DNA of 52,216 nt, from assembly GCA_019748395.1 (NCBI GenBank), contig JAIEPM010000231.1, forward strand, positions 1-52,216, read 5' to 3'. The translations under genes and the position numbers were made by a program. The DNA is from Candidatus Obscuribacterales bacterium. Lineage in GTDB: Bacteria > Cyanobacteriota > Vampirovibrionia > Obscuribacterales > Obscuribacteraceae. Positions 4,857-39,281 of the stretch are shown here, in pieces (the first letter of the stretch is position 1; each line of letters opens with the position of its first letter). The notes beneath the pieces are model-generated. The model worked only from the letters and a program-made list of their open reading frames with translations. It was not told where the DNA came from and made no database searches.

Positions 4857-5456
4857 ATGCTGAAGAATTCTTTGGCTTCGCGCCGTTTTGCTGCGCCCGC
4901 TCTGCTGTGCTTTCCCGATGAATCAGTGCAAACTCGCAGTTCAAGGGGCAGTTTTCTTGTGGAAGGAATGGTCGGAATTCTTGTATCGAGCATTATCGCC
5001 ACAGCGATGGTGCAGATTTATGCGCAGACCCGTCGAATGAGCAATGTCAGTCAGGGTCAGTTGCTTGCCACTGCGCTTGCTCAGGAGTGCATCGATCACC
5101 TGCGCGTTGTTCCTTATACTCTGGTTGCTGCCAACACCGGTGTTCACTATGCTCAGTTGTCCGGTGCTGCCACCCAGGATGCTTTATTCCCACGACCTTT
5201 ACTGGAAGATAATTCTCTGGATTACACCGCCGGTGGTGACTCAACAGTAGAGAATGCTTCCGCATCTGCTTTCCACAGTTTGAATGCCGATACAAATCAG
5301 GATGATGATACGGTCAAAGTTCAGATCGTTAATTCAAGCCTTGCCGGTATCACAGGTTTGCAGGTGACCGTAAGTCTGAAATGGCGTGACAGTTCCGGTT
5401 CCGTAAAGTCATATGACTCTTCTTCGTTTCTCACGCCGAATGGATTGGGTAGCTAG
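4857..5456 (+). CDS. PilV-like minor type IV prepilin
   Basis: 199 aa with a prepilin leader of about 30 residues ending SSRG, then SFLVEGMVGILVSSIIATAMVQ. Cleavage after Gly leaves Glu at mature position 5, the residue typical of pilins assembled by the type IV pilus or type II machinery. A hydrophobic N-terminal helix runs to about residue 57. It continues into a polar amphipathic helix containing ALAQECIDHLRVVPYT, as in PilV/GspI-like minor pilins. The globular domain is about 120 aa. The gene has a CGAGGAA ribosome binding site and is followed after two bases by the PilW-like gene, so the three pilin genes are one operon. Which filament it primes cannot be told from this window, as no PilB/PilC/PilD gene is present. 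Confidence 0.8.
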   Translation: MLKNSLASRRFAAPALLCFPDESVQTRSSRGSFLVEGMVGILVSSIIATAMVQIYAQTRRMSNVSQGQLLATALAQECIDHLRVVPYTLVAANTGVHYAQLSGAATQDALFPRPLLEDNSLDYTAGGDSTVENASASAFHSLNADTNQDDDTVKVQIVNSSLAGITGLQVTVSLKWRDSSGSVKSYDSSSFLTPNGLGS

Positions 5457-5458
5457 CT

Positions 5459-6445
5459 ATGAAGTCGAAGCATACAAATATCCGCTCCCGCAGTGGTGAT
5501 TCATTAATCGGGCTTCTGGTTGCGACTTTGATATTTTCATTCATCGGTGTTTCGATGATGGCACTTGTGTCTTTAAACACGATTGAGAGTTATAAAATCA
5601 ATGCTCGAACCGACAATATCAGCTCTGCAAAAGTAGCACTTGATAAAATCGGAAGACTGATTAGAATGGCTCGCAGTATAGGAGATGTGCAGGGTGCCAC
5701 GCGGCCCACGAGCAATCCCTTTTCCGATATTCCAAACGGACCGAGCACCGATACCTTCGCCGTGCACGGCAGCACAATCACGGTGAGCCAGGTCAGCTCC
5801 GGCACGGCATGTAATACTTCGGCTGCATTTCCATCCGTGGGTGATCCATATTATGGTCCCAACGGCACTTTGAACGGCACTATTGCCAGCTGGCCCTGGG
5901 GTGGCTCTCCCAACAATCCTTATCGCCTGAGCGGTGACACTTGTGTTTTGCAGGTTCCGACATTCGATGCTAACGGATTTCCAAATTGTGTTCAAAACGC
6001 TCAAACTCTGGCAGCTCTCGATACTTATGTATTTAAGGTGGTGCGTGATAATTCAAGACCGGGGCCGACTCGCTGGTTTCAATTACAAATGGCTGTATTC
6101 CCGGCTCCTAACGGATTGAGTAATAAACCCAGCACTCTTTCGCCCGGCTCTCCCGTAACAATCTTGAGTGGACTGGTCGGACCTCTTGATGGAAATCAGA
6201 ATCCGGCTGTTTTTCAGTACATAAACTCATCCACAAACACTGCCACCACTAACTTCGACCCTGCCACGCCGCAAGGTGCATTGAACGAGCAAGACCTGGT
6301 ACTTTTCAGCGGCGTTGTCGCCAATTTGCAAATTCTCAGCAATTCTCAAAGTGCAAGTCAAAAAGCCAGTCTTACCAGTTTGCGTTCTGAAATGTATCTG
6401 CGCAACAACGCTTCTGCTGCGATTATGGGTCCGTCTCCTAACTAA
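5459..6445 (+). CDS. PilW/GspJ-like minor prepilin lacking Glu5
   Basis: 328 aa. The leader RSRSG is followed by DSLIGLLVATLIFSFIGVSM, a class III prepilin cleavage site and N-terminal helix in which mature position 5 is Gly and not Glu. The following amphipathic helix ISSAKVALDKIGRLIRMARS resembles PilW/GspJ. The C-terminal domain is rich in Ser, Asn, Gly and Pro and has two cysteines near NTSAAF and one at GDTCVL, suggesting a disulfide. The start overlaps the tail of the previous gene to within two bases, so translation is probably coupled. The family call is by position and N-terminal pattern; the globular part was not recognised. Confidence 0.75.
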   Translation: MKSKHTNIRSRSGDSLIGLLVATLIFSFIGVSMMALVSLNTIESYKINARTDNISSAKVALDKIGRLIRMARSIGDVQGATRPTSNPFSDIPNGPSTDTFAVHGSTITVSQVSSGTACNTSAAFPSVGDPYYGPNGTLNGTIASWPWGGSPNNPYRLSGDTCVLQVPTFDANGFPNCVQNAQTLAALDTYVFKVVRDNSRPGPTRWFQLQMAVFPAPNGLSNKPSTLSPGSPVTILSGLVGPLDGNQNPAVFQYINSSTNTATTNFDPATPQGALNEQDLVLFSGVVANLQILSNSQSASQKASLTSLRSEMYLRNNASAAIMGPSPN

Positions 6446-24003: not shown

Positions 24004-25365
24004 TCAAAGAGATTGCAGAAATTCCAGAAGTTCATTCTTTTCAGTCTCGCATAGGGCGTTAAAACTGGCAGCTGCTTGCTCTGCCTGTCCGCCATGGAGC
24101 ATGATTGCTTCGCTCAGGGACTTTGCTCTGCCGTCATGTAAATATTGTTTCCTTTTTCGGATGCCCCAGAGTGGGGCTGTCCGCCATTCCGAGGCTGAAG
24201 CTCTGCCCTCCGGAATTCCGTCTGCCAGATCGTTTCCCATATGATGAACCAGAAAATCTGAGTAAGCTGCTACCGGCTTGTTTTCCAAAGCTTCAATTTC
24301 AATGAAATCCAGGTCTGGAAATTTGCTGTCGGGGTCCACCACCGTAACTTTTTCGGCACTGCGTAATTCCGGTACATGACAGAATGCACAACCGAGCTTT
24401 TCAAATGTTTGCTCACCACGTTTTACCGCTGGTGTAATTTTGCCTCTTTCCGGGGCTGCAAGCAGTGACATGTAATAGGTTAACTCAGCCTGAATTTTTC
24501 CATTGTCGTTCGGTTCGGAAGCTACGAATGAGCTTAAGCAAGTCGGTAGTTTAGATTCGCCGCCAGGAGCTCGGACTTTTGGGTTGCTGGGGCTGCTTAT
24601 TCCGATAGCATCGTTCATCATGTCTGCTGCTACCATCAGCAAGTTAGATTCAATGCACTTCTGTCCAAAACGATTTATGCGAGATTCGAAAGTAAGTCTG
24701 TCTTTGCGGTCCAGAACACGGCCGACTGCGTCGACGTCCAGCTCTAGCTGCTGTTCTTCCAGCTTATCGATTTGATTGTCGGGAATGGCGTTAATCAGCC
24801 CTACTCCGTCTAGACTGCGAGCTATTCTTGTAGAGACAAAATCGCAATCTTTCGGAATTCCAATAGTTTCGACTTTGCAATCCTTTAGTGCCGCAATAGA
24901 CTCGCTAAGTGAATGTTTCTCGACCAGACCCATTCCTTGATTCTCGTAAAAATGAACGTCCCTCAGCGTGGCGCTGCTCTTAAGCAGGCTTTTTGAAGCC
25001 TTCGGATCTTTTCTACTTGCAAATAAAATCAGAGAACGCGATGCAAGTGAGTTCTTGTTTTCAATTGCGGCAAGATCATTTGAATTGGATTGCTCTGAGT
25101 CATGGCAGCTTGCGCAACTTTTAGCGTTGTAAACCGGACCCAGACCTTCTTGAGCGGTAAATTCATGTTGGAAGGTTTTAGCGCAGCGTTCAAACTTGGA
25201 CTTTTGTTGAGCCGTAAGACCGGCAACAGGCGTTGCGATTTGTTTTTTTGGGGAAGCAGTTTGCAGGGGTGAGCAACTTACCAGCATTGTCAGAGAAAGC
25301 AAAATTGCAGATTGTTTGAATAAATGAGCTCGGTTGTTTGGGGCAAGAAGTCTTATTTTTGTCAT
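24004..25365 (-). CDS. Diheme c-type lipoprotein, DUF1111/thiol oxidoreductase-like family
   Basis: About 453 aa from the ATG at 25365 (a TTG 15 bases earlier is in frame). A lipoprotein signal ends in LVSC near residue 31. The mature protein has two c-heme sites: CASCHDS near residue 84, inside FTAQEGLGPVYNAKSCASCH, and CAFCHVPEL near 330. The C-terminal RTAPLWGIRKRKQYLHDG is the conserved end of the DUF1111 diheme family, distantly related to MauG and cytochrome c peroxidases. These proteins are periplasmic or outer-membrane redox proteins of uncertain substrate. It is the last gene of a seven-gene co-directional run, 56 bases after the HMA-TPR gene, suggesting a shared envelope redox or metal function. 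Confidence 0.88.
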   Translation of the reverse strand: MTKIRLLAPNNRAHLFKQSAILLSLTMLVSCSPLQTASPKKQIATPVAGLTAQQKSKFERCAKTFQHEFTAQEGLGPVYNAKSCASCHDSEQSNSNDLAAIENKNSLASRSLILFASRKDPKASKSLLKSSATLRDVHFYENQGMGLVEKHSLSESIAALKDCKVETIGIPKDCDFVSTRIARSLDGVGLINAIPDNQIDKLEEQQLELDVDAVGRVLDRKDRLTFESRINRFGQKCIESNLLMVAADMMNDAIGISSPSNPKVRAPGGESKLPTCLSSFVASEPNDNGKIQAELTYYMSLLAAPERGKITPAVKRGEQTFEKLGCAFCHVPELRSAEKVTVVDPDSKFPDLDFIEIEALENKPVAAYSDFLVHHMGNDLADGIPEGRASASEWRTAPLWGIRKRKQYLHDGRAKSLSEAIMLHGGQAEQAAASFNALCETEKNELLEFLQSL

Positions 25366-25421
25366 GAAATTTGGTCTCAAATGTTAAAGCTTTAGCTATG
25401 CCATGAAAATGAACCGACTCT

Positions 25422-26732
25422 CTAAACGGGGCGGAAGACGGAGGCTATACTGCTAAATGCTTTTCTAAGCTGCTCTCTCAAAATGGCGGCGTAGTTATGT
25501 TTCCAGTTCCAAATTTTGAGCATGCGAGATTCCAGTACTTTGCTCTTTTGTGGATCCTTTTTGCTGGCAATTTGCCACTGAACTAATGCTTCGTGATTCT
25601 TCCGTTCCTTCAATAAAACGCGAACCAGTTGCAGGCGCCATTCAAGATTTTCCGGACAAGACAATAGAGCGTTTTTATACGCCGTTTCTGCAACCAGGTA
25701 CCAGTTTTCCCTCGTTTGTTTTTGTGCAGGATGATTTGTGGTCAGGACACTGGCTCTTTTCAGGCATTGTTCTGCCAGAAAAGATTGGAATTCGGGACTT
25801 TTTAAGTGCTTCTTGCTCTGTCTTACAAGAACCTGGTAATCTGCAGCAGGAGCATTTAGTTTGTCGAAACATTGCTCAAGGATTTCATAACTGCCTTCTT
25901 TTTGCGGATAGTTCTTGACCAGTTCGGAAGCCTGTAGCAAAGCTTCAGGGTAATTTGTTGATTCGTAGGCGATCTGGGATAAAAGCCTCAGTGCGGCGTA
26001 AGAATTTGTCTTTTCTGAAAGTACCGTTCTGCATAGCTCTTGCACTTGATCATAGCGACCTGTGAACATGAGTGCGCAAGCAAGAGTTAGCCGAATCCTC
26101 CTTCTCTGGGCAGCTTCGTTAGCGGGTAGCGGCATAGAGTTTAGTTTCATAAGTAACGAGATTGATTCTTCGACTTTTCCGCTTTGAATCAGATTACGGG
26201 CAAAACGAAGCTGCGCCTCCAGTTTTCTTGATAATTCGAGTTCTTTGCTCGATTTCGTTTCTGCAGGCATAAGTAGCAGAGAGTCGCTGTTGAGCTCTGT
26301 GCACCAGAAGAGGTCTTTTGGCCAACCTTTCAAAAGCAAAGGGCTGCAGTTTTGATTTTGCTCACTAAGAGCAATCACCTCAAAGTTAAGTTGCCCTACT
26401 TGAGCAGCGACTTGCTCCTTGGAGATCTTGCTTTTGTCTATTGTAACTGTGGCGCTTGGTCTGAACTCACCCAGTTTTTTTTCAACGCTTAGCATCAAAA
26501 CCCCCGGATTTCGATGGAGCGTTGTTTCAACTGCTTTCCTGCAAGATAAGCAGCCAGCGCCTCCAATCTGGAACTTGATAATGCTCAAATTTGAAGTCCG
26601 AGAATCAGCCGGAGTGGCGGTCGTGTTAACTTGAACGGTCAGTTGTCGGGTCTGTACTGAGCTTGCAAGCGTCGGCGATACCACAGCAATAGCGCAGAGC
26701 ATCGCAATTCCCATTTTTGTGTTCTGTTTCAT
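25422..26732 (-). CDS. Exported HMA (CxxC) domain fused to TPR region
   Basis: 436 aa. A signal peptide covers residues 1-24 (core MGIAMLCAIAVVSPTLAS). Residues 50-118 form a heavy-metal-associated domain: SIIKFQIGGAGCLSCRKAVE with Cys61 and Cys64, then PSATVTIDKSKISKEQVAAQVGQLNFEV. This is the MerP/CopZ fold that binds Cu(I), Zn or Hg with the CxxC pair. From about residue 170 to the end there are five or more TPR-like helix pairs (for example YDQVQELCRTVLSEKTNSYAALRLLSQIAY). Fusion of an exported HMA domain to TPRs is unusual. The gene starts 13 bases after the TadG-like stop and is followed by the diheme lipoprotein gene. It could deliver metal to the cytochrome or to the assembled Tad-like structure; this is a guess from context. 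Confidence 0.85.
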   Translation of the reverse strand: MKQNTKMGIAMLCAIAVVSPTLASSVQTRQLTVQVNTTATPADSRTSNLSIIKFQIGGAGCLSCRKAVETTLHRNPGVLMLSVEKKLGEFRPSATVTIDKSKISKEQVAAQVGQLNFEVIALSEQNQNCSPLLLKGWPKDLFWCTELNSDSLLLMPAETKSSKELELSRKLEAQLRFARNLIQSGKVEESISLLMKLNSMPLPANEAAQRRRIRLTLACALMFTGRYDQVQELCRTVLSEKTNSYAALRLLSQIAYESTNYPEALLQASELVKNYPQKEGSYEILEQCFDKLNAPAADYQVLVRQSKKHLKSPEFQSFLAEQCLKRASVLTTNHPAQKQTRENWYLVAETAYKNALLSCPENLEWRLQLVRVLLKERKNHEALVQWQIASKKDPQKSKVLESRMLKIWNWKHNYAAILREQLRKAFSSIASVFRPV

Positions 26733-26745
26733 GTCGTTAACTCAT

Positions 26746-29700
26746 TTAAGGCGTGTAAGGTGCTGCTATGTCCACAGGTCCATTCATGTAGTTAAGATCT
26801 GAAGGCGTCCTGTAAACGGGCGGGCAGGTGTCATATGTTTCTTTTTCCTCTGCATTTAGCTCGGCTTGCTCTCGTGAGGCGTCATCACCCGGGAGGGCTG
26901 AGAATTGAAATGGCAGCAAATCACTTGCCTTGTGTGCTTTAAGTAGCATATGGTCTAGGTCGAGCTTGCAACAGGCTACGCCAAATGGGTTACCGATGCG
27001 AAATTCGCCGGCTGGATAGGGTGGATCTTTCTTTTGGTCTCCTATTTTGATGTCGAAGTTGCTTGTCCATTTACGAGGATCTTGCAGTGAGTAGCTCTTA
27101 CCGTTTTCCAGATCTGCGAACTGGTCTCGAGCAATGACTGAACGAATAACGTAGGCGGGGTGATTCGGATCTAGACCCGCTTGTCCTTCTTGGAAAATGT
27201 CTCCTGCGAAATAGAGAAACTGAGATGGCAGTAAATTGTAGTGACCAAACGGATAGCGCGGTGTTTTGTCAAGGTGTGGGTGCCTGATATGTGTTATCCC
27301 TATGGTTCCGCTTCCGCCATTTGGCTTTGAAACATCGCCATCGCAGCTAAGAACAAAAACCATTTCAAGTGTTGGCGATGCGCTCGTTGCATTCTTAGTG
27401 CCGCCACCAGAAGCAGAGCTTGTGTTACGTGTTTCAAGATTACTCTTGGCTCTATAGTCTATGATTTCTTGCTTTAACTCACCCAGCTTTGGAAAAGAAT
27501 ATGAGTTTGGGTCTTTAGATACTCTGTCAATGTGGTTGATATCTCCTTTGAGTTTATAGATTCCGCCGTCATTTGTTCCCGAGACAAGCCGAGACGAGTA
27601 CGGTCTTAACGGATAAAATCTTGCTGAGTATTTGACACCATAAGGTAAACCTCTTTGCGGATCTCGGGAGCACCATTCATATCGGTACAAGCGAGCCTTA
27701 TCTACGTCGCTTATAGGGTTGCCGATCGTGGATTCAAATAGTCCCTGGCGAAACTTGGAATTTGCGTGAAGACTTGAGTAATCACTGAATTTGGCTCCAT
27801 TTAGTGTACCGTTGTAATTACTCTTTATCAGTTCGGCTGGCATCACAGAACATTGCAGCGGTAGATGCTCGCTTCCGTAGAGCAGCCTGTCGGTTTCTTT
27901 TACGAAATATCCAAATTTCCCTAATGCAGGATCTTCAGCGTTTGCAAAACCGGCTGACTGTACCTGCTCAACCAAAAAGGCAAAGTCATTTACGTCGGAT
28001 TCAGTTACAGGATCAAGGTCGTAAAAATTCGAACCGCTATAGCGCTGATGCGTTCTGATTTTTGCTCTTTTATTCTTAGGATGCCCGCAGTTAGGCATAA
28101 CAAAGGCTATTCTGGCGTAGCTAGTCAAAAATTCATCGAACTTCCCTTTTTTCCAGTAAGGAGTTGGGTCATGAACAGTATCTCCATTCCAGCCTTCAAC
28201 GTTTAAGGCGAAAACCGGTGCGTTTGGATACTTTTCAGGATCGGGACTTTTCTCATAATCTCGAGATGCCGGAGGCGCTTCAGTGTTCAGTTTCTTTACG
28301 CTGCTTGTTAGCTGTCTGCAAAGTCTGAAGAATCGTCGAGACTTTACCATGGCGATCTTTCCAGCTCTCATGCAATTTAGTGCTCTAGAGCTTATATGTT
28401 CGACTCGTCCGATCTCCTCATTCATCAGAAGTCTGTGCATTGGTAACTTTGACGCTTCCGAGGCGGCATTGCCGGCCGTTATGGAGATGTTCTTGAATTT
28501 TTCAAGAAAACTTGCGGGTGTCTCCCCTGCGTGGATGCCGTATTTTGAGTCAGACTGAAGTGGTGAGTGCTCTAATAATTTCTGTCCTTTATATTTGAGC
28601 CAAACTTCTTTGAGCTTATTGAGTTCAGTTGCCAGAGCTTGGAGATCGCCTGGTATGGCTGGAGGGTTAGGTGCGGCTTCGTCTGCTAGAAGCTGATTAT
28701 ATGCAGCTTCAGCCCTGCTAATTCCTTGCTGAACTGTATCGGTTAGGTGAGCCTTTAGTATTGTATCTCGACCTCGATGTGTGTAAAGTTCATTCTCGAG
28801 GAAATTACTTACTTTAGCTTTTCCCTCCAGAATTAGAAGCGGCTGGAGTGATTCGAAAAATGCCATTCTTCCCCCCAACCTTGCTTCCATCGCAGCCTGA
28901 TTGGTCGCAATCATGCCTTCTATTAGTTGGCACAGTTCAACAATGCTTGCGCCCGAAGTGGTTCTGGCCTCGCCTGTAATTGGATCTTCAAGTATGCTTC
29001 CGACAGACTGGCTGCATTGCACACCGGAGGGATCATCCAATCCCAGATAATCGAACGCTTGTTTATATATTCTTTTCCCTTCTTCAGAGCTGGGGTCAGT
29101 GAGATATAAAAATCTGGGATCGACTTTACCTGGTTCAAGAGCTCGTCTCATGCAGCCCACTAGAGGACCAGGTGCAGGAACGAAATCGGCTTCCTCCACG
29201 TCGCCGGCTGATTCCTGGCTTTCTGTTTTGTCTTCTGGATTAGGCTGATTGCTATCATCACTGCCGCTTTCATCAGAGACTGCTTCATCTTTAAATTCTC
29301 GGGCTTTCACAATTGTGCGGAAGTCACCTGTTTTTATGGCTGCAACTACCGACTGTCGATTAGGGCGAAGTCTGAGGCTTCTGAGCCAATCGTAAAGTCC
29401 GGATGCCAGTGCCGTACTTGGGTTGTCTCGTGCTGTTTGTGCCGAGGACAATGTATAAAAATCAGCCGGTACAAGTGTGCCGCCGTTGTCCGGATAATTT
29501 GCAGGGCCCTTGTTTTGAAGCCAGGTGCTGCTCTGGTGTGCCGGATCCATGTTTTGCCAGCCATTGAAATTCAGCAATTTTTCTGTGGTCAAAACTTTGC
29601 CCATTGAGTTTTCACTGGGAAATGCTCCTGCAAATCCAATCGTATAAACCGTGGACCTCGCATTCAGAATCGCCCCACCGGTCTGTGCTGCCGCTTCATG

Positions 29701-30588
29701 ATGAACGGAACCCAGTGCTTTCGCGTCTTTAGCATTGGGCGCCAGACTTTTAATTGTGTTATCGGCTTTTACTCTTACAACTGTTGTCGGCAGCCACTCT
29801 TTTTCATCTGACTCGACAAAACGTTCATTGCTGACTAAGCGAGCTTCACTGGCGATTGCAGCAAAGCGAAAATTTTCTTTTTCACCTTCGACCGGAACGT
29901 CGGCATAAGGCAGATAAAGTCCGGAGCTCGATACTTTCTCCGATTCTTTGTCCGGAGGGGTCGGTATGCTGACATTAGTTGAGCCGGTGCGTGCCTTTAA
30001 ATGTCCAATCTCAATCTTGAAAGTATTCGGATCAAGCTCGCCAGGTCCGCCCATGCGTCGATTATTTTGTTCATATACAGCCATGGTCTGCTCTCTGAGG
30101 GTGGATTTAGAGCCCTTAGAAACGAGCGAATTCATCTTCTCTTTCATTTCTTTTGCGACTCGGCGCAACTCCGTCATGTCTCTTTCGACAAGCCTTTTCA
30201 TATCCTTATTATTCAAATCGTGCGCAATTTGATAATCCAGCCTGGCTGTAGCTATGGCCGTATTGATACCGATCACGGGAGCTTCGTTGCTCGGATTGAT
30301 GACAGTGCCGTTTTTCATGAAATACGGATTGCGTTTGTCCTTTGGGCTCATATCCACAAGTCCGATATAGCCGAGTTTTGATTTGATGATCAGGCTTTGA
30401 TCATTTGCGATTTCTCTGGCTGCATACAAGGCGGCTGCGTCTATCGCAGTTTGAGCTTCTTTATTTGTGCCGAAAATTCCTGCGACGTTAAGACTGAAAA
30501 AGACGATCGCCAGCAATATGACTCCTATACACGCAAGCACAAGAACAATGTTGCCATTTTTACTTGCGCGCTTTTGCTTTGCTCTCAT
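26746..30588 (-). CDS. Very large TadG-like pilus-assembly protein
   Basis: 1280 aa with GGAGG nine bases before the ATG. The N-terminus is basic, then NGNIVLVLACIGVILLAIVFFSLNVAG and EAQTAIDAAALYAAREIAND. That is the Tad/TadG-like N-terminal pattern: a single transmembrane helix followed by a helix with Ala-Asp repeats. The remaining 1200 residues are predicted extracytoplasmic: helical coiled regions, an acidic Ser/Glu segment near 430-455, and several beta-rich parts. Ordinary TadG proteins are about 400-600 aa. A von Willebrand A domain was not recognised. Two TadE-like genes precede it in the same direction, at 42 and 53 bases spacing, so the three are likely one assembly unit. No TadA ATPase, TadB/C or Flp pilin is in the window. 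Confidence 0.8.
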   Translation of the reverse strand: MRAKQKRASKNGNIVLVLACIGVILLAIVFFSLNVAGIFGTNKEAQTAIDAAALYAAREIANDQSLIIKSKLGYIGLVDMSPKDKRNPYFMKNGTVINPSNEAPVIGINTAIATARLDYQIAHDLNNKDMKRLVERDMTELRRVAKEMKEKMNSLVSKGSKSTLREQTMAVYEQNNRRMGGPGELDPNTFKIEIGHLKARTGSTNVSIPTPPDKESEKVSSSGLYLPYADVPVEGEKENFRFAAIASEARLVSNERFVESDEKEWLPTTVVRVKADNTIKSLAPNAKDAKALGSVHHEAAAQTGGAILNARSTVYTIGFAGAFPSENSMGKVLTTEKLLNFNGWQNMDPAHQSSTWLQNKGPANYPDNGGTLVPADFYTLSSAQTARDNPSTALASGLYDWLRSLRLRPNRQSVVAAIKTGDFRTIVKAREFKDEAVSDESGSDDSNQPNPEDKTESQESAGDVEEADFVPAPGPLVGCMRRALEPGKVDPRFLYLTDPSSEEGKRIYKQAFDYLGLDDPSGVQCSQSVGSILEDPITGEARTTSGASIVELCQLIEGMIATNQAAMEARLGGRMAFFESLQPLLILEGKAKVSNFLENELYTHRGRDTILKAHLTDTVQQGISRAEAAYNQLLADEAAPNPPAIPGDLQALATELNKLKEVWLKYKGQKLLEHSPLQSDSKYGIHAGETPASFLEKFKNISITAGNAASEASKLPMHRLLMNEEIGRVEHISSRALNCMRAGKIAMVKSRRFFRLCRQLTSSVKKLNTEAPPASRDYEKSPDPEKYPNAPVFALNVEGWNGDTVHDPTPYWKKGKFDEFLTSYARIAFVMPNCGHPKNKRAKIRTHQRYSGSNFYDLDPVTESDVNDFAFLVEQVQSAGFANAEDPALGKFGYFVKETDRLLYGSEHLPLQCSVMPAELIKSNYNGTLNGAKFSDYSSLHANSKFRQGLFESTIGNPISDVDKARLYRYEWCSRDPQRGLPYGVKYSARFYPLRPYSSRLVSGTNDGGIYKLKGDINHIDRVSKDPNSYSFPKLGELKQEIIDYRAKSNLETRNTSSASGGGTKNATSASPTLEMVFVLSCDGDVSKPNGGSGTIGITHIRHPHLDKTPRYPFGHYNLLPSQFLYFAGDIFQEGQAGLDPNHPAYVIRSVIARDQFADLENGKSYSLQDPRKWTSNFDIKIGDQKKDPPYPAGEFRIGNPFGVACCKLDLDHMLLKAHKASDLLPFQFSALPGDDASREQAELNAEEKETYDTCPPVYRTPSDLNYMNGPVDIAAPYTP

Positions 30589-30630
30589 TTCGACGCCTCC
30601 ACGGGATTAATTGGAATCTTTTATTGCTGC

Positions 30631-31320
30631 TTAATTGCACAGACCTTCAGGGTGCTCAACATTGGATATTGCGCAGTGTTCAATGATGGCGGCTTTGCCG
30701 AGCATGGGTACCTGACTTAAGCCGAAAGGCATAGAGCTGAAATTGAAGAGTGGCATGACCTCATATTTCGCCATGACTTTGAATGCGTAAGCATATTTTT
30801 TGCGGTCGATGCCTTCGCTTTTGGGATAGGATTTGTTAGGACCATAGTGCGACTCGGAAAATGTGCTGTTTTTCTCTTCTTGGCTAACAGCAAATTTGAA
30901 GCTGCCTTCATCCGGGTTTGACTGGCTATCGTTAACTGTGTTTGATGTATTGTTTTTGCTGCTATCTGTTACTTTGTCGACTTCAGCACGGTCGATATAA
31001 AGATCGACACCCAAATTCCGGTAGCCGCCAACTGGTTTGATATTGGCAAATTGACCGATACCGGAAAAAACAATCGACTTTGCTTGATTTGACATTTGAT
31101 TCATTGCTTCAGTATTTGATGAAGCAGAACCTGCTTGGCGAGCTGCGTTGTTTGCAATGAGATGAACTGTCGCTACACCCCAGCTGAAACTAAGAAGATT
31201 GATCAGTGGAAAGAAGAGCAGGAAGAACAATACATAAAGCATCGGTCCTGTTTCAGCTATGGCGTTTCCATGGTTGTTGCGCGAGTTCTTGAAAACTCTC
31301 TTTGCATCTTGGCTTGTCAT
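30631..31320 (-). CDS. TadE-like pseudopilin
   Basis: 229 aa. After a short basic leader the sequence NHGNAIAETGPMLYVLFFLL matches the TadE N-terminus, with a conserved Glu just before the hydrophobic helix (residues 27-50). The next helix, ATVHLIANNAARQAGSASSN, is TadE-like. The rest (about 150 aa) is exposed, polar and without cysteines except two at the extreme end (HCAISN, EGLCN) that may pair. It lies between a second TadE-like gene and the giant TadG-like gene. TadE/TadF pseudopilins are processed by TadV and help Flp pilus assembly; whether a processing enzyme exists elsewhere cannot be seen here. Confidence 0.8.
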   Translation of the reverse strand: MTSQDAKRVFKNSRNNHGNAIAETGPMLYVLFFLLFFPLINLLSFSWGVATVHLIANNAARQAGSASSNTEAMNQMSNQAKSIVFSGIGQFANIKPVGGYRNLGVDLYIDRAEVDKVTDSSKNNTSNTVNDSQSNPDEGSFKFAVSQEEKNSTFSESHYGPNKSYPKSEGIDRKKYAYAFKVMAKYEVMPLFNFSSMPFGLSQVPMLGKAAIIEHCAISNVEHPEGLCN

Positions 31321-31373
31321 GTCCTGTTCCCATCCCTTCTAGCTCGATCTACCCGTAAATCAGACATCGTTCC

Positions 31374-31856
31374 TTAATTTTCGCTTTCATTGGCTACAGC
31401 AAAGGAGTAAGGCATTGTTTGTTGGGCGTAGAAAACAAGCTTTTCAGTGCCGCTTGCTTGTTTGTGAATGGCGCCGATCAGAAAGGGCGGATAAACTTCG
31501 AGGCTGGTTTTAACTGTGACTGTGCCTGATACATTGCCGCCGACCGTATCATCGATTTTCTCGTCGGCTTCCTGGCTGTTATGCGAATCCTTTTCAACGA
31601 GGCGTAAATTTCCGATTGCGCCACGGAGATTGTAAAGAACGCTTTTAGCTATTACGGCGTTTGCTCGGGAGAGATACATAGTCGGAGAGCCTGTTGATGC
31701 GACGCGGCAGGCTTCGCGGCAGGCAGCATCGTTAACGCTTACACCGACGACAATGACGATCAGGTCAAAGAGGCAGAGAATCACAGGCAGAAGAGCAATC
31801 AGACCTGCGCTGCACTCGATCATCAACTGAGCTTTGGAATTGCGATTTCTTGCCAT
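31374..31856 (-). CDS. TadE-like pseudopilin
   Basis: 160 aa with GGAG nine bases before the ATG. N-terminus MARNRNSKAQLMIECSAGLIALLPVILCLFDLIV has the Glu-before-helix TadE signature, followed by VNDAACREACRVAS, the position where TadE proteins often carry an Ala/Arg-rich helix. The exposed domain is about 110 aa with a beta-rich part (GTVTVKTSLEVYPPFLIG). It is the first Tad-like gene after the two histidine kinases, 95 bases downstream of them, and precedes the other TadE-like gene by 53 bases. Confidence 0.8.
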   Translation of the reverse strand: MARNRNSKAQLMIECSAGLIALLPVILCLFDLIVIVVGVSVNDAACREACRVASTGSPTMYLSRANAVIAKSVLYNLRGAIGNLRLVEKDSHNSQEADEKIDDTVGGNVSGTVTVKTSLEVYPPFLIGAIHKQASGTEKLVFYAQQTMPYSFAVANESEN

Positions 31857-31951
31857 TTCGTTTTACTCCATTCCTACAACTTCGATGCTCTTAAGTTAGA
31901 AGGAATTTGTAAAAACGGTGCAACGAAAATGTCAGGTCGATGGTGTAGGAG

Positions 31952-33469
31952 TTATTCGATTTTCTCCAGATCACTGCTCGGTGCGGCTTTAAGTTCAAAC
32001 CAGAAGCAGCTTCCGCCGTTTTCGCGGCGTTTATAGCCGATGCTGCCACCCTGGGCTTCAATGAGCATTTTACAGATGTATAAACCGAGTCCTGAGCCCT
32101 GTTTGCGGACATCTTCCGCTTGCTCGAGCTGGCTGAATTTAGCAAAAAGCCGACTCTGCTTATCTTCCGGTACACCCGGACCTTCATCCAGTACTTCCAG
32201 GCGCAGGCGCTCAGTCTCAGCTACGCTGTTTACGACTATGTCGATTCTGGAATTTTTCGGAGCGAACTTAACAGCGTTTGAGAGTAGGTTTACCAGTACC
32301 TGAATACAGCGATCTTTATCGCAATAGAAGCTTGCGCCTTCCTGAAGTTCTTGAAGGATACTTATGTTTTTGCGTTTGGACTGAGAAATAATTGCTTCCT
32401 CAGATATCTTAATCAGCTCCAGGCAAGATAAAGAACGAAGCTGCACCTCCACACTGCCGTCTTCGATTTTTTCTATATCCAGAAGTGTGTTCGCCAGGCG
32501 GGTCAAGCGTCCTGTTTCCGAATGCAATAACTTCAAATCACGCAGGTAGGACCTTGCGATTTCAATCTTTTCCTCTCCGGCCTGCTTAACTTGCTCCTCT
32601 GCGGAGTTGAGCATTACTTCAAGTTTAAGCGCCATCGAGGTTAAAGGCGAGCGCAAGTCGTGACTTACCATGGCTCTCATGGAGTCTTTTAATTCTTCCA
32701 GTTTTGCTCGTTCTTCAGCCATTTCACGAAAAGCCCGATCGATAGTGGCAAGTTCATCCTCTCCCGATAGGCTCTTGGTCGGCACTTTCCCCCTGGAAAA
32801 CTCATTCATATTGAGGCGCAAAAGCTCCAGTCGGGAAAGCGTTTTTTTTCCTAATATATGTGCAAAGGCGAGCACAAGCATGATGTTGATTGCAACTGCG
32901 GCAATTATTGCCATGTTCAAAAATGATCTGGCCTCGATTGATTCTGGATTGAGTTCCTGGGCATCCCGGCTGTATCTGGCCAGAAGCGCGTCGGCGTCTT
33001 CGTGTACGCTGTTCAGGGCGTAGAGCATTGATTCGTTCAGGTCGCCCCGGCAGAGAAACTGTGAAAAATATTGAGTCCTGCCATGACCGCTGCTGTAAGC
33101 ATGAACATATTCTTCCCAGAGATCCAGGAAACGGAAAGCATTTTCTTTCCAGCGGGATAGAATTTCCTGAGTTTTTGTATCTGCTTTGGCAAACTCTTGG
33201 ATCTCATTGAAGTACTTGTTTATGCGCTGTCTTTGTTTATCAATGCCGCTTGTGCTTTTACCAAGCAGGCTATCCTTTGCAGTCAGGAGTACGGTTTGTT
33301 CCATACTCATGCTCAATTGAAGCCCCAAGGCCGTCGCTTTTTTTGCATTTAGTTCTCTCAAAGCGAGTTCATCGACGCGTTGATAGCTGCTGATCAAAAC
33401 TGCCGCTGTTACAAGCTCGCAGGCAATCGGCAATCCTAGAATCAATGCTAACTGCTGTCTTATTTGCAT
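31952..33469 (-). CDS. Membrane sensor histidine kinase
   Basis: 505 aa from the ATG at 33469, whose first bases overlap the previous stop by 10 bases, with AGGA nine bases upstream; an in-frame ATG at 33502 is an alternative. Topology: TM1 at about 7-27, a helical periplasmic sensor to about 180, TM2 at about 183-203, a HAMP-like linker, HisKA with MVSHDLRSPLTSM (phospho-acceptor His near 270), and HATPase_c. The ATPase part has NAVKFAP (N box), DEGPGVPED (G1) and GSGLGLYICKMLIEAQGG (G2). It is a close tandem duplicate of the kinase half of the upstream gene. No response regulator gene is nearby, so its partner is elsewhere. Confidence 0.93.
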   Translation of the reverse strand: MQIRQQLALILGLPIACELVTAAVLISSYQRVDELALRELNAKKATALGLQLSMSMEQTVLLTAKDSLLGKSTSGIDKQRQRINKYFNEIQEFAKADTKTQEILSRWKENAFRFLDLWEEYVHAYSSGHGRTQYFSQFLCRGDLNESMLYALNSVHEDADALLARYSRDAQELNPESIEARSFLNMAIIAAVAINIMLVLAFAHILGKKTLSRLELLRLNMNEFSRGKVPTKSLSGEDELATIDRAFREMAEERAKLEELKDSMRAMVSHDLRSPLTSMALKLEVMLNSAEEQVKQAGEEKIEIARSYLRDLKLLHSETGRLTRLANTLLDIEKIEDGSVEVQLRSLSCLELIKISEEAIISQSKRKNISILQELQEGASFYCDKDRCIQVLVNLLSNAVKFAPKNSRIDIVVNSVAETERLRLEVLDEGPGVPEDKQSRLFAKFSQLEQAEDVRKQGSGLGLYICKMLIEAQGGSIGYKRRENGGSCFWFELKAAPSSDLEKIE

Positions 33470-36354
33470 ATTGCCGGGTCCTGCTTTGAGCTTCCCCTGC
33501 ATTCGAGCCGGGCTTTATGCAAAACATTTGAAAGGCTGCTAAATAACTCCTTTTCCACTTCTAATGCGGCTTTATGGGAGAGCAGCTCTTCAGCTCTGCT
33601 TTCTAAGACCGGAAAGTCTTTCTGAACCGGCGCTGCTTTCTTGCTTCTTTGACAGGCTCTCAGTATTTCCAATTCGGTGATCAGGAGGCGATAATTGTAA
33701 AAAGGCAGGTCTTTTATGCAGTTTTTAGAAATCGATAAAATTTGTTCCTGCGCAGCTTCTATTTTATTTAAGCGTGCATAAGCCAGAGCTAGCATCAAGC
33801 GCTTTCGCGCATGAATCTTGTTAAAAAATGCCGGGTTAAGACTCGCCCAGGGCGGCATTTTGTTCGAACTGCTCATCTGAACTTCTTTTTCAAGCAAGCT
33901 AATATCTAAATTCTCATTCCTGATATCGTCTATGAGAAACTTTCGGAAGCGTTCAAGTATTTCCATGGACAGAGCTTTGTTTCTTGTGGCTAAAGAATAG
34001 TCCAGTGCTTTTTGAAATGAATTCAAAGCTTTCAGCTTTTCGGCATTTCGCTCAAAAAGCTCTGCTCTAAGCATTTCTATCTGGGCTGCATCGCTTGCTG
34101 TCTTAGTGCTGATCGCACTCAGATACTCTTCAAGGCAGCTTGCAGCTTTCGTGCTTACTGTATTTGACGAGTAAAGATGCTCAGTCCATGCATCCAGCAC
34201 AGACTTTCTGTTTTCTAGAGGAAGCTTGTTCAGTCCTGCGAGTAAGTTCTCCGCCTCTTCGTCATTTCCCTGGCTGAGTAGTAAATGAACCTGGGCGCAA
34301 ATACTATTACTTAGCTCTTCAAGTCCTTTATCGATTATCGAGAGATCATGTTGACCAAGAGCGTTTTTTTTGATTCCAGCCGCTACAGTCAATGCCGCTT
34401 GAAGTTTTCCTCTATTGAGGTATCCTTGGGCTAAGAGCAGCAAGTCTCTGGCATTTGATTTGAAAGGAAGATATTTCTCGAGCGTTTCAATTGCTCTAGA
34501 ATATGCATTTAGAGATTTATCTATTTTATCTTCTTCCAGGTAAACCCCCGCCCAACGGCGCCAGTAGCGAGCTTCCATTATTCGGTCTTTTAATTTGCCG
34601 CTTTCTATAAAAGGTCTGACTTTTTCGAGTGTCTCTTCGGCTTTCCGGAAATTTTTCAAGCGTCTGTATACCTCTGCTATGTTGAGGTAAATGTCATACT
34701 TCGCTTCGCAATCAGGATCATCTTGCTCAATCATGATCAGAGCCTTGCTATAAACAGAAAGAGCGCGAGTGAGGTCTGTGCTCTTGTCAATGTCGAGTCT
34801 GGCGGACCTGACATAAGTGCGCCAGCTGCTTCTGCCGCTTGAATCGGCTGCTTCAACGCTTTGAGAGAGAAGGACTGTGAATAGCAAGAGTGCTTTTAGT
34901 GCTGCTTTAGGTAGTTCAAACCAGAAACAGCTGCCGCCCTCGGCTCGTTTTTTGTATCCGACTCTGCCGTTCTGCGCTTCGATCAACATTTTGCAAATGT
35001 ACAGCCCGAGTCCGCTGCCTTGTTTCTTAAGATCGGCGGACTGTTCAAGCTGAACAAACTTTGCAAACAGTTTATTTTGAGCGTCTTCCGCGACGCCTGG
35101 TCCTTGATCAAGTATTTCAATCGACCAGCTATCTTCATTGTTTTCGCAAACCTTGATTTCAATTTCAGACTTCCTTGGAGCAAACTTGACTGCATTCGAG
35201 AGAAAATTGACCAGCACCTGTATACTGCGATCTCTGTCGCAATACATGCTGGCGCATTGAACTAATGACTGCTTGATAGTTATCTCTTTTCGTTTGCTCT
35301 GGGCCAGGACAGCCTCAATTGACACTGTAATTAAGTCTGCACAGCTATTCTCCTTGGCTTGAACTTCGATACTGCCGTCTTCCATTTTCTCGATATCGAG
35401 AAGTGTGTTTGCCAGTCGACGCAGTCTTTGAATCTCTGAGTTGAGTGTTTTGAGATTGCCCGTGAGCTGCGGATAGACGTCTTCGATATCCTCAAGAATT
35501 AGTTCTACTCTAAGACCCATGGATGTTAATGGCGAACGGAGGTCATGACTGACCATTGCCCTCATTGATTGTTTGAAAGATTCGAGTTTTTCCAGTTCAT
35601 TCGACATTTCTTGAAAGACCTGGTCTATTTCTGCAAGTTCATCGTTTCCATTCAAGCGGGATATTTTTTGACCAGGCACTGAAAAGGCTTTTATATTATT
35701 GAGAAGCAGGAGCAAGCGAAGCATGATGTTTCTGTTCAATAAAACAGCAAAGCATGCCACCAGAATTACATTTGCCGCTACTCCTAGAATCACTGCTCCA
35801 CGCAAATTTGCTCTGGCTTTCATCGCTTTCGGATGGAACTCGGCTGCTATTGGTGTGTAAATAGCAAGCATTTTGTTTGTATCGTTATTGACTCTTTTGA
35901 AATCGTTGAGCATTTGATCTTGGGCTGCCTTTGTTTGCAAAGCCACAAGTGGTGCATCGCCTTCTTTATCAGACTCGTTGATTTGTGCAAGGAGTTTGTC
36001 GAAACTATCCAGAAAAATCTCGACGTCCTTTTGCCATAGATCAAGTCGCTTCGCTGCTTCAGCTTCAGAGCTGCTCAGTTTTCGTATCAATGCAAAATCA
36101 TTCTGGATGCTCTGCCTTGGAACTTCGCTTTGAATGTCGGCAATCCCGGCGATACCTTTGTTAGACATGACACAAATTGATTTTTGCAAAAGTGCCCTTA
36201 TATGAATGCCTGCTGAGATTACTCTTTTAGCTTTGAGTTCTTTATTTACGAGTTCATCTACTTTGCTGTAGGAATAAATCAACATGCCGACTGAAAGCAT
36301 TTGGCAGCCTATCGGCAGTCCAAGAAGCAAAATGAGCTGTTTGCTGATTTTCAT
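33460..36354 (-). CDS. Histidine kinase fused to a TPR region behind a third membrane segment
   Basis: 964 aa. Residues 1-480 are a complete sensor kinase like the downstream paralog: TM1 about 7-30, periplasmic sensor, TM2 about 185-207, HAMP-like linker, HisKA with His270 in MVSHDLRSPLTSMG, and HATPase with NAVKFAP, DQGPGVAED and GSGLGLYICKMLIEAQ. Directly after FWFEL, where the paralog ends, comes KAALKALLLFTVLLSQSVEAADSS (residues 481-505, quoted in part: KALLLFTVLLSQSVEA). This looks exactly like a signal peptide with an AxA-type end. It is followed by about 460 residues of TPR-like helices (RALSVYSKALIMI, NAYSRAIETLEKYL). If the segment spans the membrane the TPR part is periplasmic. 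The gene opens the seven-gene run and overlaps the second kinase. A fusion of two ancestral genes is the simplest reading. Confidence 0.9.
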   Translation of the reverse strand: MKISKQLILLLGLPIGCQMLSVGMLIYSYSKVDELVNKELKAKRVISAGIHIRALLQKSICVMSNKGIAGIADIQSEVPRQSIQNDFALIRKLSSSEAEAAKRLDLWQKDVEIFLDSFDKLLAQINESDKEGDAPLVALQTKAAQDQMLNDFKRVNNDTNKMLAIYTPIAAEFHPKAMKARANLRGAVILGVAANVILVACFAVLLNRNIMLRLLLLLNNIKAFSVPGQKISRLNGNDELAEIDQVFQEMSNELEKLESFKQSMRAMVSHDLRSPLTSMGLRVELILEDIEDVYPQLTGNLKTLNSEIQRLRRLANTLLDIEKMEDGSIEVQAKENSCADLITVSIEAVLAQSKRKEITIKQSLVQCASMYCDRDRSIQVLVNFLSNAVKFAPRKSEIEIKVCENNEDSWSIEILDQGPGVAEDAQNKLFAKFVQLEQSADLKKQGSGLGLYICKMLIEAQNGRVGYKKRAEGGSCFWFELPKAALKALLLFTVLLSQSVEAADSSGRSSWRTYVRSARLDIDKSTDLTRALSVYSKALIMIEQDDPDCEAKYDIYLNIAEVYRRLKNFRKAEETLEKVRPFIESGKLKDRIMEARYWRRWAGVYLEEDKIDKSLNAYSRAIETLEKYLPFKSNARDLLLLAQGYLNRGKLQAALTVAAGIKKNALGQHDLSIIDKGLEELSNSICAQVHLLLSQGNDEEAENLLAGLNKLPLENRKSVLDAWTEHLYSSNTVSTKAASCLEEYLSAISTKTASDAAQIEMLRAELFERNAEKLKALNSFQKALDYSLATRNKALSMEILERFRKFLIDDIRNENLDISLLEKEVQMSSSNKMPPWASLNPAFFNKIHARKRLMLALAYARLNKIEAAQEQILSISKNCIKDLPFYNYRLLITELEILRACQRSKKAAPVQKDFPVLESRAEELLSHKAALEVEKELFSSLSNVLHKARLECRGSSKQDPAICK

Positions 36355-36437: not shown

Positions 36438-37505
36438 TTATCGGTCTTTAACACAGCGGAAGCCTATATGGTTGCAGCCGCTGGAAATCTCGCCCTTGCC
36501 TCTGGAGCCCATCATGTAACGGGCGCAATACTGATCGGTGCATAAAAACGACCCTCCTTTTTGAACGCGTTTCTTTGCGCCCGGTTCGCTTGGATCGTAG
36601 CTGCTTTCAGGACCTTTTGGATTGTCTATAATTTTTCCTGCAGGCAAAGTCGCGTAATAGTCGGGGCGGTACCAGTCCGAACACCACTCCCAGACGTTGC
36701 CGACCATATCGTAAAGCCCATAAGCGTTCGGCGGAAATGATTTTACGGGAGCAGCGGTTTTGTAGCCATCTTCTGCAGTATTCTGGTAAGGAAAAATACC
36801 CTGCCAGAGATTAGCCATCCATTTGCCGTTTGGTCTGAATTCTTTTCCCCAGGCATACAATTCGCGATCTAGACCGGCTCTTGAAGCACATTCAAACTCT
36901 GCTTCCGTTGGTAATCGTTTTTTGGCCCACTTAGCATAGGCGAGGGCATCATCGAATGCAATTTGCACCACCGGAGAATTCCATCGTCCTTCCAGATTCG
37001 ACTGCGGACCTTCCGGATGCTGCCATGATGCACCGGCTACATAACGCCACCAGTTGTAGTGCTGACGTTTTGAAACTTCGTGGTCTGGAGGCGTGAATAC
37101 AAGAGCCCCTGCGAATAACTGCTCAGGCGGGACATGAGGAAATTCTTTGGGATCGGGTTTGATTTCGGCGATTGTTTTGTAGCCAGTGGCTTTGACAAAG
37201 CGGGCAAAATCTTCATTGGTGACTTCTGTTTTATCAATCCAGAAGCTTTTCAAATGGACTTGATGAATGGGGCTTGTATCTCTGAAAGATTGGCTTTCCA
37301 GACCCATCCAGAACGTGGTTTCAGGAATCAGTACCATTCCGCCTTTTTCTTTTAGTTTTGGTTTTTGCTCTGAATTTTTCTTTTTATCGCTTTTATGCTC
37401 GATGCTCTCAGCCGTGGCGCTAGAAATAATAGTCAGGCAAAAAAGAAGGATAAGGACTTTAGCGACTTTCCTAAAAGAACTATTCTTGCCGGCTTCATTA
37501 CGCAT
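36438..37505 (-). CDS. Formylglycine-generating enzyme, apparently exported
   Basis: About 355 aa from the ATG at 37505; a longer frame to 37559 exists, but its ATG overlaps a TATAAT -10 box, so the shorter start is preferred. Residues 8-33 form a signal peptide (RKVAKVLILLFCLTIISSATA). The SUMF1/FGE-sulfatase domain fills the rest: GGMVLIPETTFWMGLES, KSFWIDKTEVTNEDFARFV, RLPTEAEFECASRAG, DMVGNVWEWCSDWY, and GGSFLCTDQYCARYM. The two Cys of that last motif match the catalytic pair of true aerobic, copper-dependent FGE. The enzyme oxidises the sulfatase Cys to formylglycine. It is divergent from a sulfatase gene with a CTAGR site, its likely substrate. Export is odd, because bacterial FGE is normally cytosolic and acts before folding. 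Confidence 0.9.
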   Translation of the reverse strand: MRNEAGKNSSFRKVAKVLILLFCLTIISSATAESIEHKSDKKKNSEQKPKLKEKGGMVLIPETTFWMGLESQSFRDTSPIHQVHLKSFWIDKTEVTNEDFARFVKATGYKTIAEIKPDPKEFPHVPPEQLFAGALVFTPPDHEVSKRQHYNWWRYVAGASWQHPEGPQSNLEGRWNSPVVQIAFDDALAYAKWAKKRLPTEAEFECASRAGLDRELYAWGKEFRPNGKWMANLWQGIFPYQNTAEDGYKTAAPVKSFPPNAYGLYDMVGNVWEWCSDWYRPDYYATLPAGKIIDNPKGPESSYDPSEPGAKKRVQKGGSFLCTDQYCARYMMGSRGKGEISSGCNHIGFRCVKDR

Positions 37506-37557
37506 TACTGAAAAAGCTTTCACCAAATGACATCGACTGAAGGACCTGTTGTGGACC

Positions 37558-37563
37558 ATTATA
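37558..37563 (-). promoter_or_regulatory. Possible -10 box of the FGE gene
   Basis: A perfect TATAAT on the minus strand lies about 53 bases upstream of the preferred start codon. No -35 match is seen at 16-18 bases. It is used here mainly to argue against the upstream ATG. Confidence 0.3.
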
Positions 37564-37664
37564 GTTTAATCTAAGCACCGGCCGGTCTTATTTTGAGACT
37601 CTGATGCTTTCTGCTGTCAGAGCTGCTGTTTGAGACTGCGCGAGCTTGTGCTTCAGGAGGATTA

Positions 37665-39281
37665 ATGGTGACTTTTAAGAAGAGGCTTTTCAGCTCTTGT
37701 ATCTCATTGATGCTATTCATGGGCGTTTCTCCTGTTTCCACATTCGCTGCTGAAAACACGAAACCAAACATCATTTTTATCATGGGAGATGATGTCGGCT
37801 GGTTCAACATCGGTGCTTATCATCAAGGGATGATGGCCGGAAAAACTCCTAATCTCGACAAGATGGCTTCTGAAGGCATGCGCTTCACGGATTATTATGC
37901 GGAAGCCAGTTGCACCGCGGGCAGAGCCAATTTCATCACAGGCGAGTTGCCGATCCGCACGGGTTTAACCACGGTTGGACAGGCGGGGGCGGATCTTGGT
38001 ATTCCCGAGCAAGCCGTAACTATCGCCACTGCCTTGAAAGCACAGGGCTATGCCACAGGCCAGTTCGGCAAGAATCATCTTGGTGATAAGAACGAATTTC
38101 TGCCGACAGTTCATGGTTTTGATGAATTTTTCGGCTATCTATACCATCTTGATGCTATGGAAGATCCTTTTAGTCCGAATTACCCGGCTAGTGCTAAAGA
38201 CAGCGTTGGTCCGCGTAATATGCTTCATTGTTACGCCAGTTCAGTCGACGACAGCAGCGTACAGCCGCGCTGGGGCAAAGTAGGCAAGCAAAGAATTGAG
38301 GATGCCGGTACTCTTGATCCAAAACGGATGGAGACGGTTGACGATGAGATTCTTGCTGAAAGTTTGAAGTTTATGGATAAAGCACGAAAGGACGGCAAGC
38401 CGTTTTTTCTCTGGCTCAATCCAACACGTATGCATATCATCACTCACCTTTCTCCCAAGTACCAGGCTATGCGCAATTCAGAGAATGGTTGGACGGAACA
38501 GGAAGCAGGTATGGCGCAGCTTGATGACATTGTCGGCAGCGTCATGGACTATGTGAAAAAGAACGATCTCGATAAAAACACGATGCTGGTTTTTAGTACC
38601 GACAACGGTTGCGAGAATTTTACCTGGCCGGACGGCGGGCAAACTCCTTTTGCCGGAGCAAAGGGCACTGCCCTCGAGGGCGGTTTCCGCGTCCCGGCGA
38701 TCATTCGCTGGCCGGGTAAAGTGCCTGCCGGCAAAGTGGAAAATGGTCTTTTCTCAGGGCTAGATTGGTTTCCGACCATGCTGGCTGCTGCCGGCAATCC
38801 AAATATCACCGAGGAGCTCTTACAGGGTAAACCTTTAGTGGACAGGACTTACAAGGTGCATCTTGATGGCTATAACCAGATGGATTTGCTGACTGGAAAC
38901 GGACCTTCTAAACGCCACGAGATTTTCTATCTGACCGAAAGCACTCTCAGTGCGGTTCGTCTGGATGATTATAAGTATCGCTTCACCGACCAACCAAATG
39001 GCTGGATGGGTGCTACTCAAAAAGTAGACTGGCCGATTCTTGTGAATTTACGGCTTGATCCTTTTGAGCGTACCGGCATGCCTAATGGAAATGGTGGTTC
39101 TCTGGCTTATTACAACTGGTTTGTAACTCAGTTCTGGCGCTTTGTATATGTCCAGAAAGAAGTTGCAAAATCGGCTCAGAGTTTTCTTGAATTTCCTCCC
39201 ATGCAAAAGGGAGCGACCTTCAGTATGGACGCAATTAAGAAGCGCCTGGATGAAAAGCTCAGCACTATGTCCAGCCAGTAG
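37665..39281 (+). CDS. Exported arylsulfatase (type I, formylglycine-dependent)
   Basis: 538 aa, ATG with CAGGAGG four bases upstream. A signal peptide spans residues 1-29 (RLFSSCISLMLFMGVS core). The sulfatase fold starts NIIFIMGDDVGWFNIGAYH, where the Asp pair binds calcium. The nucleophile motif is SCTAGRANFITGELPIRTG with Cys83, a CxAxR variant of the CxPxR site that FGE converts to formylglycine. Further conserved parts are FGKNHLGD, RMHIITHLSP and VFSTDNGCENFTWPDGG. The product should hydrolyse sulfate esters in the periplasm or outside. The pairing with a divergent FGE gene supports the role. The natural substrate cannot be told. Confidence 0.94.
   Translation: MVTFKKRLFSSCISLMLFMGVSPVSTFAAENTKPNIIFIMGDDVGWFNIGAYHQGMMAGKTPNLDKMASEGMRFTDYYAEASCTAGRANFITGELPIRTGLTTVGQAGADLGIPEQAVTIATALKAQGYATGQFGKNHLGDKNEFLPTVHGFDEFFGYLYHLDAMEDPFSPNYPASAKDSVGPRNMLHCYASSVDDSSVQPRWGKVGKQRIEDAGTLDPKRMETVDDEILAESLKFMDKARKDGKPFFLWLNPTRMHIITHLSPKYQAMRNSENGWTEQEAGMAQLDDIVGSVMDYVKKNDLDKNTMLVFSTDNGCENFTWPDGGQTPFAGAKGTALEGGFRVPAIIRWPGKVPAGKVENGLFSGLDWFPTMLAAAGNPNITEELLQGKPLVDRTYKVHLDGYNQMDLLTGNGPSKRHEIFYLTESTLSAVRLDDYKYRFTDQPNGWMGATQKVDWPILVNLRLDPFERTGMPNGNGGSLAYYNWFVTQFWRFVYVQKEVAKSAQSFLEFPPMQKGATFSMDAIKKRLDEKLSTMSSQ

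Follow-up and report, generated by a model that had tools for sequence, protein, structure and literature searches.

A probable Tad-pilus Tip cassette recurs beside a diheme envelope protein in a family of Obscuribacterales

The seven-gene series that we describe from the Obscuribacterales, little-studied non-photosynthetic relatives of cyanobacteria, is probably a Tad-pilus Tip cassette, separated from its core genes and coupled in function to an envelope oxidase, and is only partly a real unit. Tip genes (TadE, TadF and TadG) recur beside genes for the DHOR/DUF1111 diheme protein, which points to an enzyme that acts on the pilus tip or together with it.

Throughout, the window is the whole stretch of DNA analyzed, at its full length of 52,216 nucleotides, and the run is the seven-gene series within it from 36354 to 24004 (Table 1). 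All seven ORFs lie on the minus strand, separated by gaps of -10, 95, 53, 42, 13 and 41 bases. The original prediction of seven consecutive minus-strand genes with short gaps is confirmed, and its first five gaps agree with ours; the last, given as 56, is obtained only if DHOR starts at ATG 25365, and becomes 41 from the upstream TTG at 25380. No minus-strand terminator-like site lies in any of the gaps, and those of the run fall inside genes. An FGE-type gene on the same strand, only 83 bases upstream, may share a transcript with the run, and is probably one half of a sulfatase-activation pair with the divergent sulfatase gene. The FGE-type protein (PF03781) encoded in this part of the window (36438-39281) has the sequence GGSFLCTDQYCARY. 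Outside the run, at 4857-6445, the window holds two genes whose encoded N-termini resemble those of type IV prepilins (RGSFLVEGMVGILV; SGDSLIGLLVATLIF).

Table 1. Positions in the window of the genes of the run and of the adjoining pair.
Feature	Position	Strand	Evidence
Histidine kinase A, membrane sensor kinase (964 aa)	33460..36354	-	Pfam HisKA, HATPase_c, TPR
Histidine kinase B (505 aa from ATG)	31952..33469	-	Pfam HisKA and HATPase; paralog of kinase A
TadE-like minor pilin (160 aa)	31374..31856	-	Homologs and prepilin-type motif
TadF-like minor pilin (229 aa)	30631..31320	-	Homologs and prepilin motif
TadG-like large minor pilin (1280 aa)	26746..30588	-	PF13400 over cut-off; tree; clade-specific residues W344, W972, Y1126
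Secreted HMA (GCLSC) and TPR protein	25422..26732	-	Pfam TPR, sub-threshold HMA
DHOR/DUF1111 diheme protein, predicted lipoprotein	24004..25380	-	PF06537, two CxxCH, fold search, LVSC lipobox
FGE/SUMF1-type protein	36438..37559	-	PF03781 7.6e-74
Sulfatase, divergent from the FGE-type gene	37665-39281		Sulfatase model 3.4e-52; carries CTAGR

The three central genes have the layout of a Tip cassette, being adjacent minor-pilin genes of which the third is large, with a motif for prepilin-type cleavage ahead of the N-terminal helix. Pfam gave no significant match for the 229-aa and 160-aa proteins; judged by their homologs and prepilin motifs they are TadF-like and TadE-like, respectively. The Tad domain (PF13400) of the 1280-aa protein scores 30.5 bits, over the cut-off. 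A TadE prepilin motif was present in all 18 loci scanned (the window and 17 relatives); the window has A/QLMIE, and the same position is G in 17/17 relatives. The window TadF motif, G/NAIAE, stands ahead of a hydrophobic helix, and a TadF motif occurs in most, not all, of the relatives scanned. The TadG prepilin site keeps the G and is without E+5. This large TadG is presumed to be the backbone of the tip; its predicted structure is poor (pLDDT 48.7) and shows a long N-terminal helix only.

The genes of the run include none of the Tad core, so that this is not a complete tad locus with its core in cis. The original prediction had noted as much and concluded that this is not a plain tad locus; the further reading, that the missing core means a separate structure, is not supported. 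The observation is true of the locus and untrue of the genome: a search of the source genome found the missing core elsewhere, with Flp pilin, RcpC, TadZ, TadA, TadB and TadC together on contig C549 (L124), the Flp pilin at L124:5539-5751 (ESGQGITEYGAILAFV), and a second, partial core on contig C202. In the same genome we found two secretin matches and a single prepilin peptidase. Myxococcus has TadE/F/G clusters that are located apart from the core genes and serve as interchangeable Tips of its Tad (Kil) pili (PMC12075869). Since detached Tip clusters of this kind are known, a missing local core is expected here and is no sign of a different structure. We reject a stand-alone envelope structure without Tad machinery, given the Flp and core genes on other contigs.

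The DHOR protein matches PF06537 with 130.7 bits against a cut-off of 22 (7e-38), and has two invariant CxxCH motifs. Its scores fall below the cut-offs of three curated models (CCP_MauG, 18.1 against 25.6 bits; MauG, 15.1 against 443.85; MbnH, 12.1 against 362.85). A Foldseek search with the predicted structure (pLDDT 85.7) gave a best E of 2.8e-05 and 17 matches at E <= 0.001, all of them from the CCP_MauG/MauG superfamily, including MauG itself and bacterial cytochrome c peroxidases, or hydrazine synthase gamma. Because the TM-scores of these matches are low (0.2-0.5) and the rmsd is large, the model places DHOR in a diheme peroxidase-type fold at the superfamily level only. Direct sequence comparison with solved structures returned hydrazine synthase gamma alone, at E 0.6. 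The window DHOR has an LVSC lipobox; at other loci the protein has a lipobox too or, alternatively, a hydrophobic anchor at its N-terminus.

The linkage of DHOR to Tad genes extends well beyond the window. TadF homologs occur in 49 of 50 genomes of the Obscuribacterales family and TadG-like genes in 48, with up to 14 TadG matches per genome, some of which are two pieces of one gene. Full-length DHOR occurs in 21 of the 50, and the majority of family genomes have TadG-like genes without DHOR. TadE, TadF or TadG neighbors accompany 23 of 28 DHOR genes, in 19 genomes and 10 genera of this one family; the five genes without Tad neighbors are G010:C53, G000:C634, G013:C57, G030:C95 and G002:C92, and G030:C44 stands outside the 28. 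TadG lies within 5 kb of 19 DHOR genes, where chance would give 0.38 (from 128 TadG matches in 107.9 Mb), a figure that treats the loci as independent, which they are not, because related lineages inherit neighborhoods. The arrangement itself varies. DHOR follows TadG in the same orientation in the window and L103; it is divergent and upstream of TadF in L099-L102 and L245-L248, between TadE and TadF in L112 and L119, and between TadG and TadE in L106. Because gene order and orientation vary in this way, the adjacency survives rearrangement. DHOR distances also track those of TadE, TadF and TadG (Mantel r 0.91-0.95, reached in 0/5000 shuffles), a correlation expected in part from species history and shared descent. 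The neighborhood of Tad-like genes and a diheme protein that the original prediction proposed is accordingly borne out as conserved; the homologs are not scattered without linkage.

The association singles out one lineage of TadG. In a tree of 38 TadG proteins, one side comprises 20 DHOR-linked and 5 unlinked rows, and the other 13 unlinked rows, mostly shorter. W344 and W972 are conserved in all 25 rows of the DHOR side and occur in 0/13 and 1/13 of the others, respectively; because the five unlinked rows have them too, these tryptophans mark the clade and do not prove a substrate. Among the matches listed, TadG-like frames of at least 880 aa are found only in genomes with full-length DHOR. 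Length is an imperfect marker: G018:C56 encodes 927 aa and falls outside the DHOR-linked clade, and the G018 genome does have DHOR. One of the unlinked rows, G017, may be a linked locus split by a contig break: its TadG reaches the end of C186, and its DHOR is located at an end of C99. Residues 1175 and 1189 are Cys in 18/20 DHOR-linked TadG proteins and T and P in that of the window.

A genome-contig scan with the DHOR alignment retained 80 loci, 5 from the family and 75 from elsewhere. All five family loci have TadE/F/G beside DHOR. A regular-expression scan found a pilin-like N-terminus near DHOR in none of the 75 and in 5/5 positive controls; the contrast is somewhat overstated, because the motif used for the controls was slightly looser (A allowed for G, more residues after E). 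Lineage HMMs, which may miss distant pilins, also found no pilin neighbors at the outside loci. We therefore reject the idea that DUF1111 genes are generally linked to Tad genes; with no pilin-like neighbors at any of the 75, the link looks lineage-specific. At 37/75 outside loci there is an ORF that matches GxHxxE, a crude imelysin-like motif.

Other gene contexts of DHOR were seen within the family. L110, L111, L113 and L114 represent a second context, which lacks Tad genes. In three of these (L110, L111 and L114) DHOR has long TPR-type proteins and 875-aa proteins nearby; the 875-aa protein of L110 is an aldehyde/alcohol dehydrogenase fusion, and in L110 an FGE-type gene also follows DHOR. 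Beside the unlinked DHOR of G010 is a 1762-aa protein (L107:9986-15274) with no Pfam match, which resembles a 1753-aa protein (L131:1683-6944) by the Tad core of the same genome (30% over 522 aa). Two kinds of small membrane protein with no Pfam match recur among the DHOR/Tad genes, one with three TM segments (L099:10363-10824, L100:3735-4205, L102:9234-9698) and one multi-TM with a CNC motif (L104:1220-1930, L109:2652-3287).

The metal and sensory functions of the original prediction fared less well. The protein between TadG and DHOR has the CxxC of an HMA domain, and its PF00403 match scores 21.2 bits, under the cut-off of 24.8. The HMA part occurs in the window and again at L106:9185-9640, there as a secreted protein of its own next to DHOR and Tad genes; TPR alone accompanies these genes in L095, L096, L112, L118 and L119, and the TPR partners whose sequences were read (L095, L096, L112, L117, L118) are without HMA. 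The domain is patchy and absent from most relatives, and TPR-only partners are commoner, which leaves the claim of a metal function weak.

Kinases A and B are paralogs with 45% identity. In kinase A the ATPase domain is followed by a signal- or TM-like segment and then a TPR region, fused in frame, an unusual topology or a gene fusion; the TPR tail, which was the query in one of the searches for relatives in place of the kinase domain, is elsewhere a free-standing gene beside kinases, as in L121 and L122. Searches with the sensor regions place both kinases in a large TPR-kinase-regulator paralog family, and family genomes (L259-L278, for example) contain a large lineage-specific expansion of modules of TPR, histidine kinase and response regulator. 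The place of the kinases in the run is supported in part. Kinases flank pilin-type genes in the window and its closest relatives alone: in the nearest relative, L121, three genes that encode pilin-like N-termini come after the kinase locus; the closest relative of kinase B, G013:C45, adjoins pilin-like genes; and in L105, whose TadG is sister to that of the window, a kinase fragment, a Ser/Thr kinase and a response regulator lie upstream of TadE/F/G. Among 20 further kinase-family loci, a lone pilin-like N-terminus was seen at L270 and none at the other 19. We found no response regulator within the run. We reject a general kinase-Tad system, since no Tad cluster lies near some 20 other kinases of this family.

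In the model that we favor, TadE, TadF and TadG would be cleaved as prepilins and form an exchangeable tip of an Flp pilus built by the Tad machinery encoded on the other contigs, an assembly that we take by analogy to follow established Tad biology. DHOR would be anchored in the membrane as a diheme enzyme akin to MauG and the bacterial cytochrome c peroxidases, and would most likely act in the envelope, on or with this tip. It would probably use peroxide or oxygen and oxidize aromatic or sulfur residues, in either the large TadG or the secreted HMA-TPR partner, leaving the tip cross-linked, stabilized, or redox- or metal-active. The two kinases may sense an envelope signal and control expression. 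The oxidative step taken alone is a tentative proposal. That DHOR matures an adhesive or effector tip, modifying or cross-linking TadG aromatics after export (W344, W972 and Y1126 being the candidates), is doubtful.

The main rival to tip oxidation, possible though short of probable, is peroxide defense: DHOR would scavenge peroxide in the envelope and protect the cell or pilus during contact, co-located with the tip genes through simultaneous use and leaving the tip unmodified. The return of bacterial cytochrome c peroxidases by the fold search is consistent with this, as is the turnover of peroxide by a relative, BthA (PMC6405878). However, the adjacency persists through rearrangement, and DHOR co-occurs with a single TadG lineage, not with Tad pili at large; both facts suggest a closer partnership between DHOR and the tip.

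The two remaining accounts question how much of the run belongs together, and to what end. It is unlikely that a generic TPR-kinase module, a Tip cassette and a DHOR unit are independent and stand together through chance and vertical descent. The expansion of the kinase family, with some 20 members away from Tad clusters, the patchiness of HMA, and the DHOR genes of the second context all agree with such a view, but for the DHOR and Tad part it sits poorly with the 23 linked genes of 28 in their varied orders; for the kinases it is a possible account. Least probable, and in our judgment very much so, is an appendage for extracellular electron transfer or metal redox, in which DHOR and the HMA-TPR protein pass electrons or metal to the pilus. 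A diheme lipoprotein and an HMA-type CxxC domain do share one run; however, the run encodes two hemes only, with no multiheme cytochrome and no imelysin gene, and HMA is missing from most relatives.

Our search of open-access papers on DUF1111, on Tad in Obscuribacter and on MauG with minor pilins found no description of a DHOR-Tip pairing. To our knowledge, oxidative post-translational maturation of the tip is not described for any type IV filament. If the tip is indeed matured in this way, the step would be used across an order of non-photosynthetic cyanobacterial relatives. Tad pilus tips have only recently been shown to be exchangeable modules, and one tip lineage repeatedly paired with a MauG-like enzyme offers a concrete, testable case of redox maturation. 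The pairing also points to a role of DUF1111 beyond the clusters associated with imelysin, and it offers a first way into the function of surface structures in uncultured Obscuribacterales.

Several known systems resemble the run in part. In MbnH/MbnP, a diheme enzyme modifies a copper protein, and the run likewise pairs a diheme enzyme with a possible metal-binding secreted protein; unlike MbnP, this partner has an HMA-type domain, and DHOR reaches 12.1 of the 362.85 bits set for MbnH. With MauG and the bacterial diheme cytochrome c peroxidases DHOR shares two c-type heme motifs, an envelope location and the nearest predicted fold, but it belongs to PF06537, and in place of methylamine dehydrogenase its putative partner is a pilus tip. 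The DUF1111-imelysin clusters known from other bacteria contain the same DHOR/DUF1111 family (PMC3143127), whereas the genes of the run include no imelysin by Pfam. The closest layout is that of the Kil Tips of Myxococcus xanthus (KilL/KilM/KilN, homologs of TadE/TadF/TadG; Herrou et al. 2025, PMC12075869), a likeness of gene layout and motifs. Both have three adjacent minor-pilin genes off the core, a large TadG-type protein with a long C-terminal extension, prepilin motifs and several clusters per genome. Unlike the Kil Tips, the cassette described here belongs to the Obscuribacterales and has as its neighbors kinases, a diheme oxidase and a secreted protein of the TPR or HMA-TPR kind.
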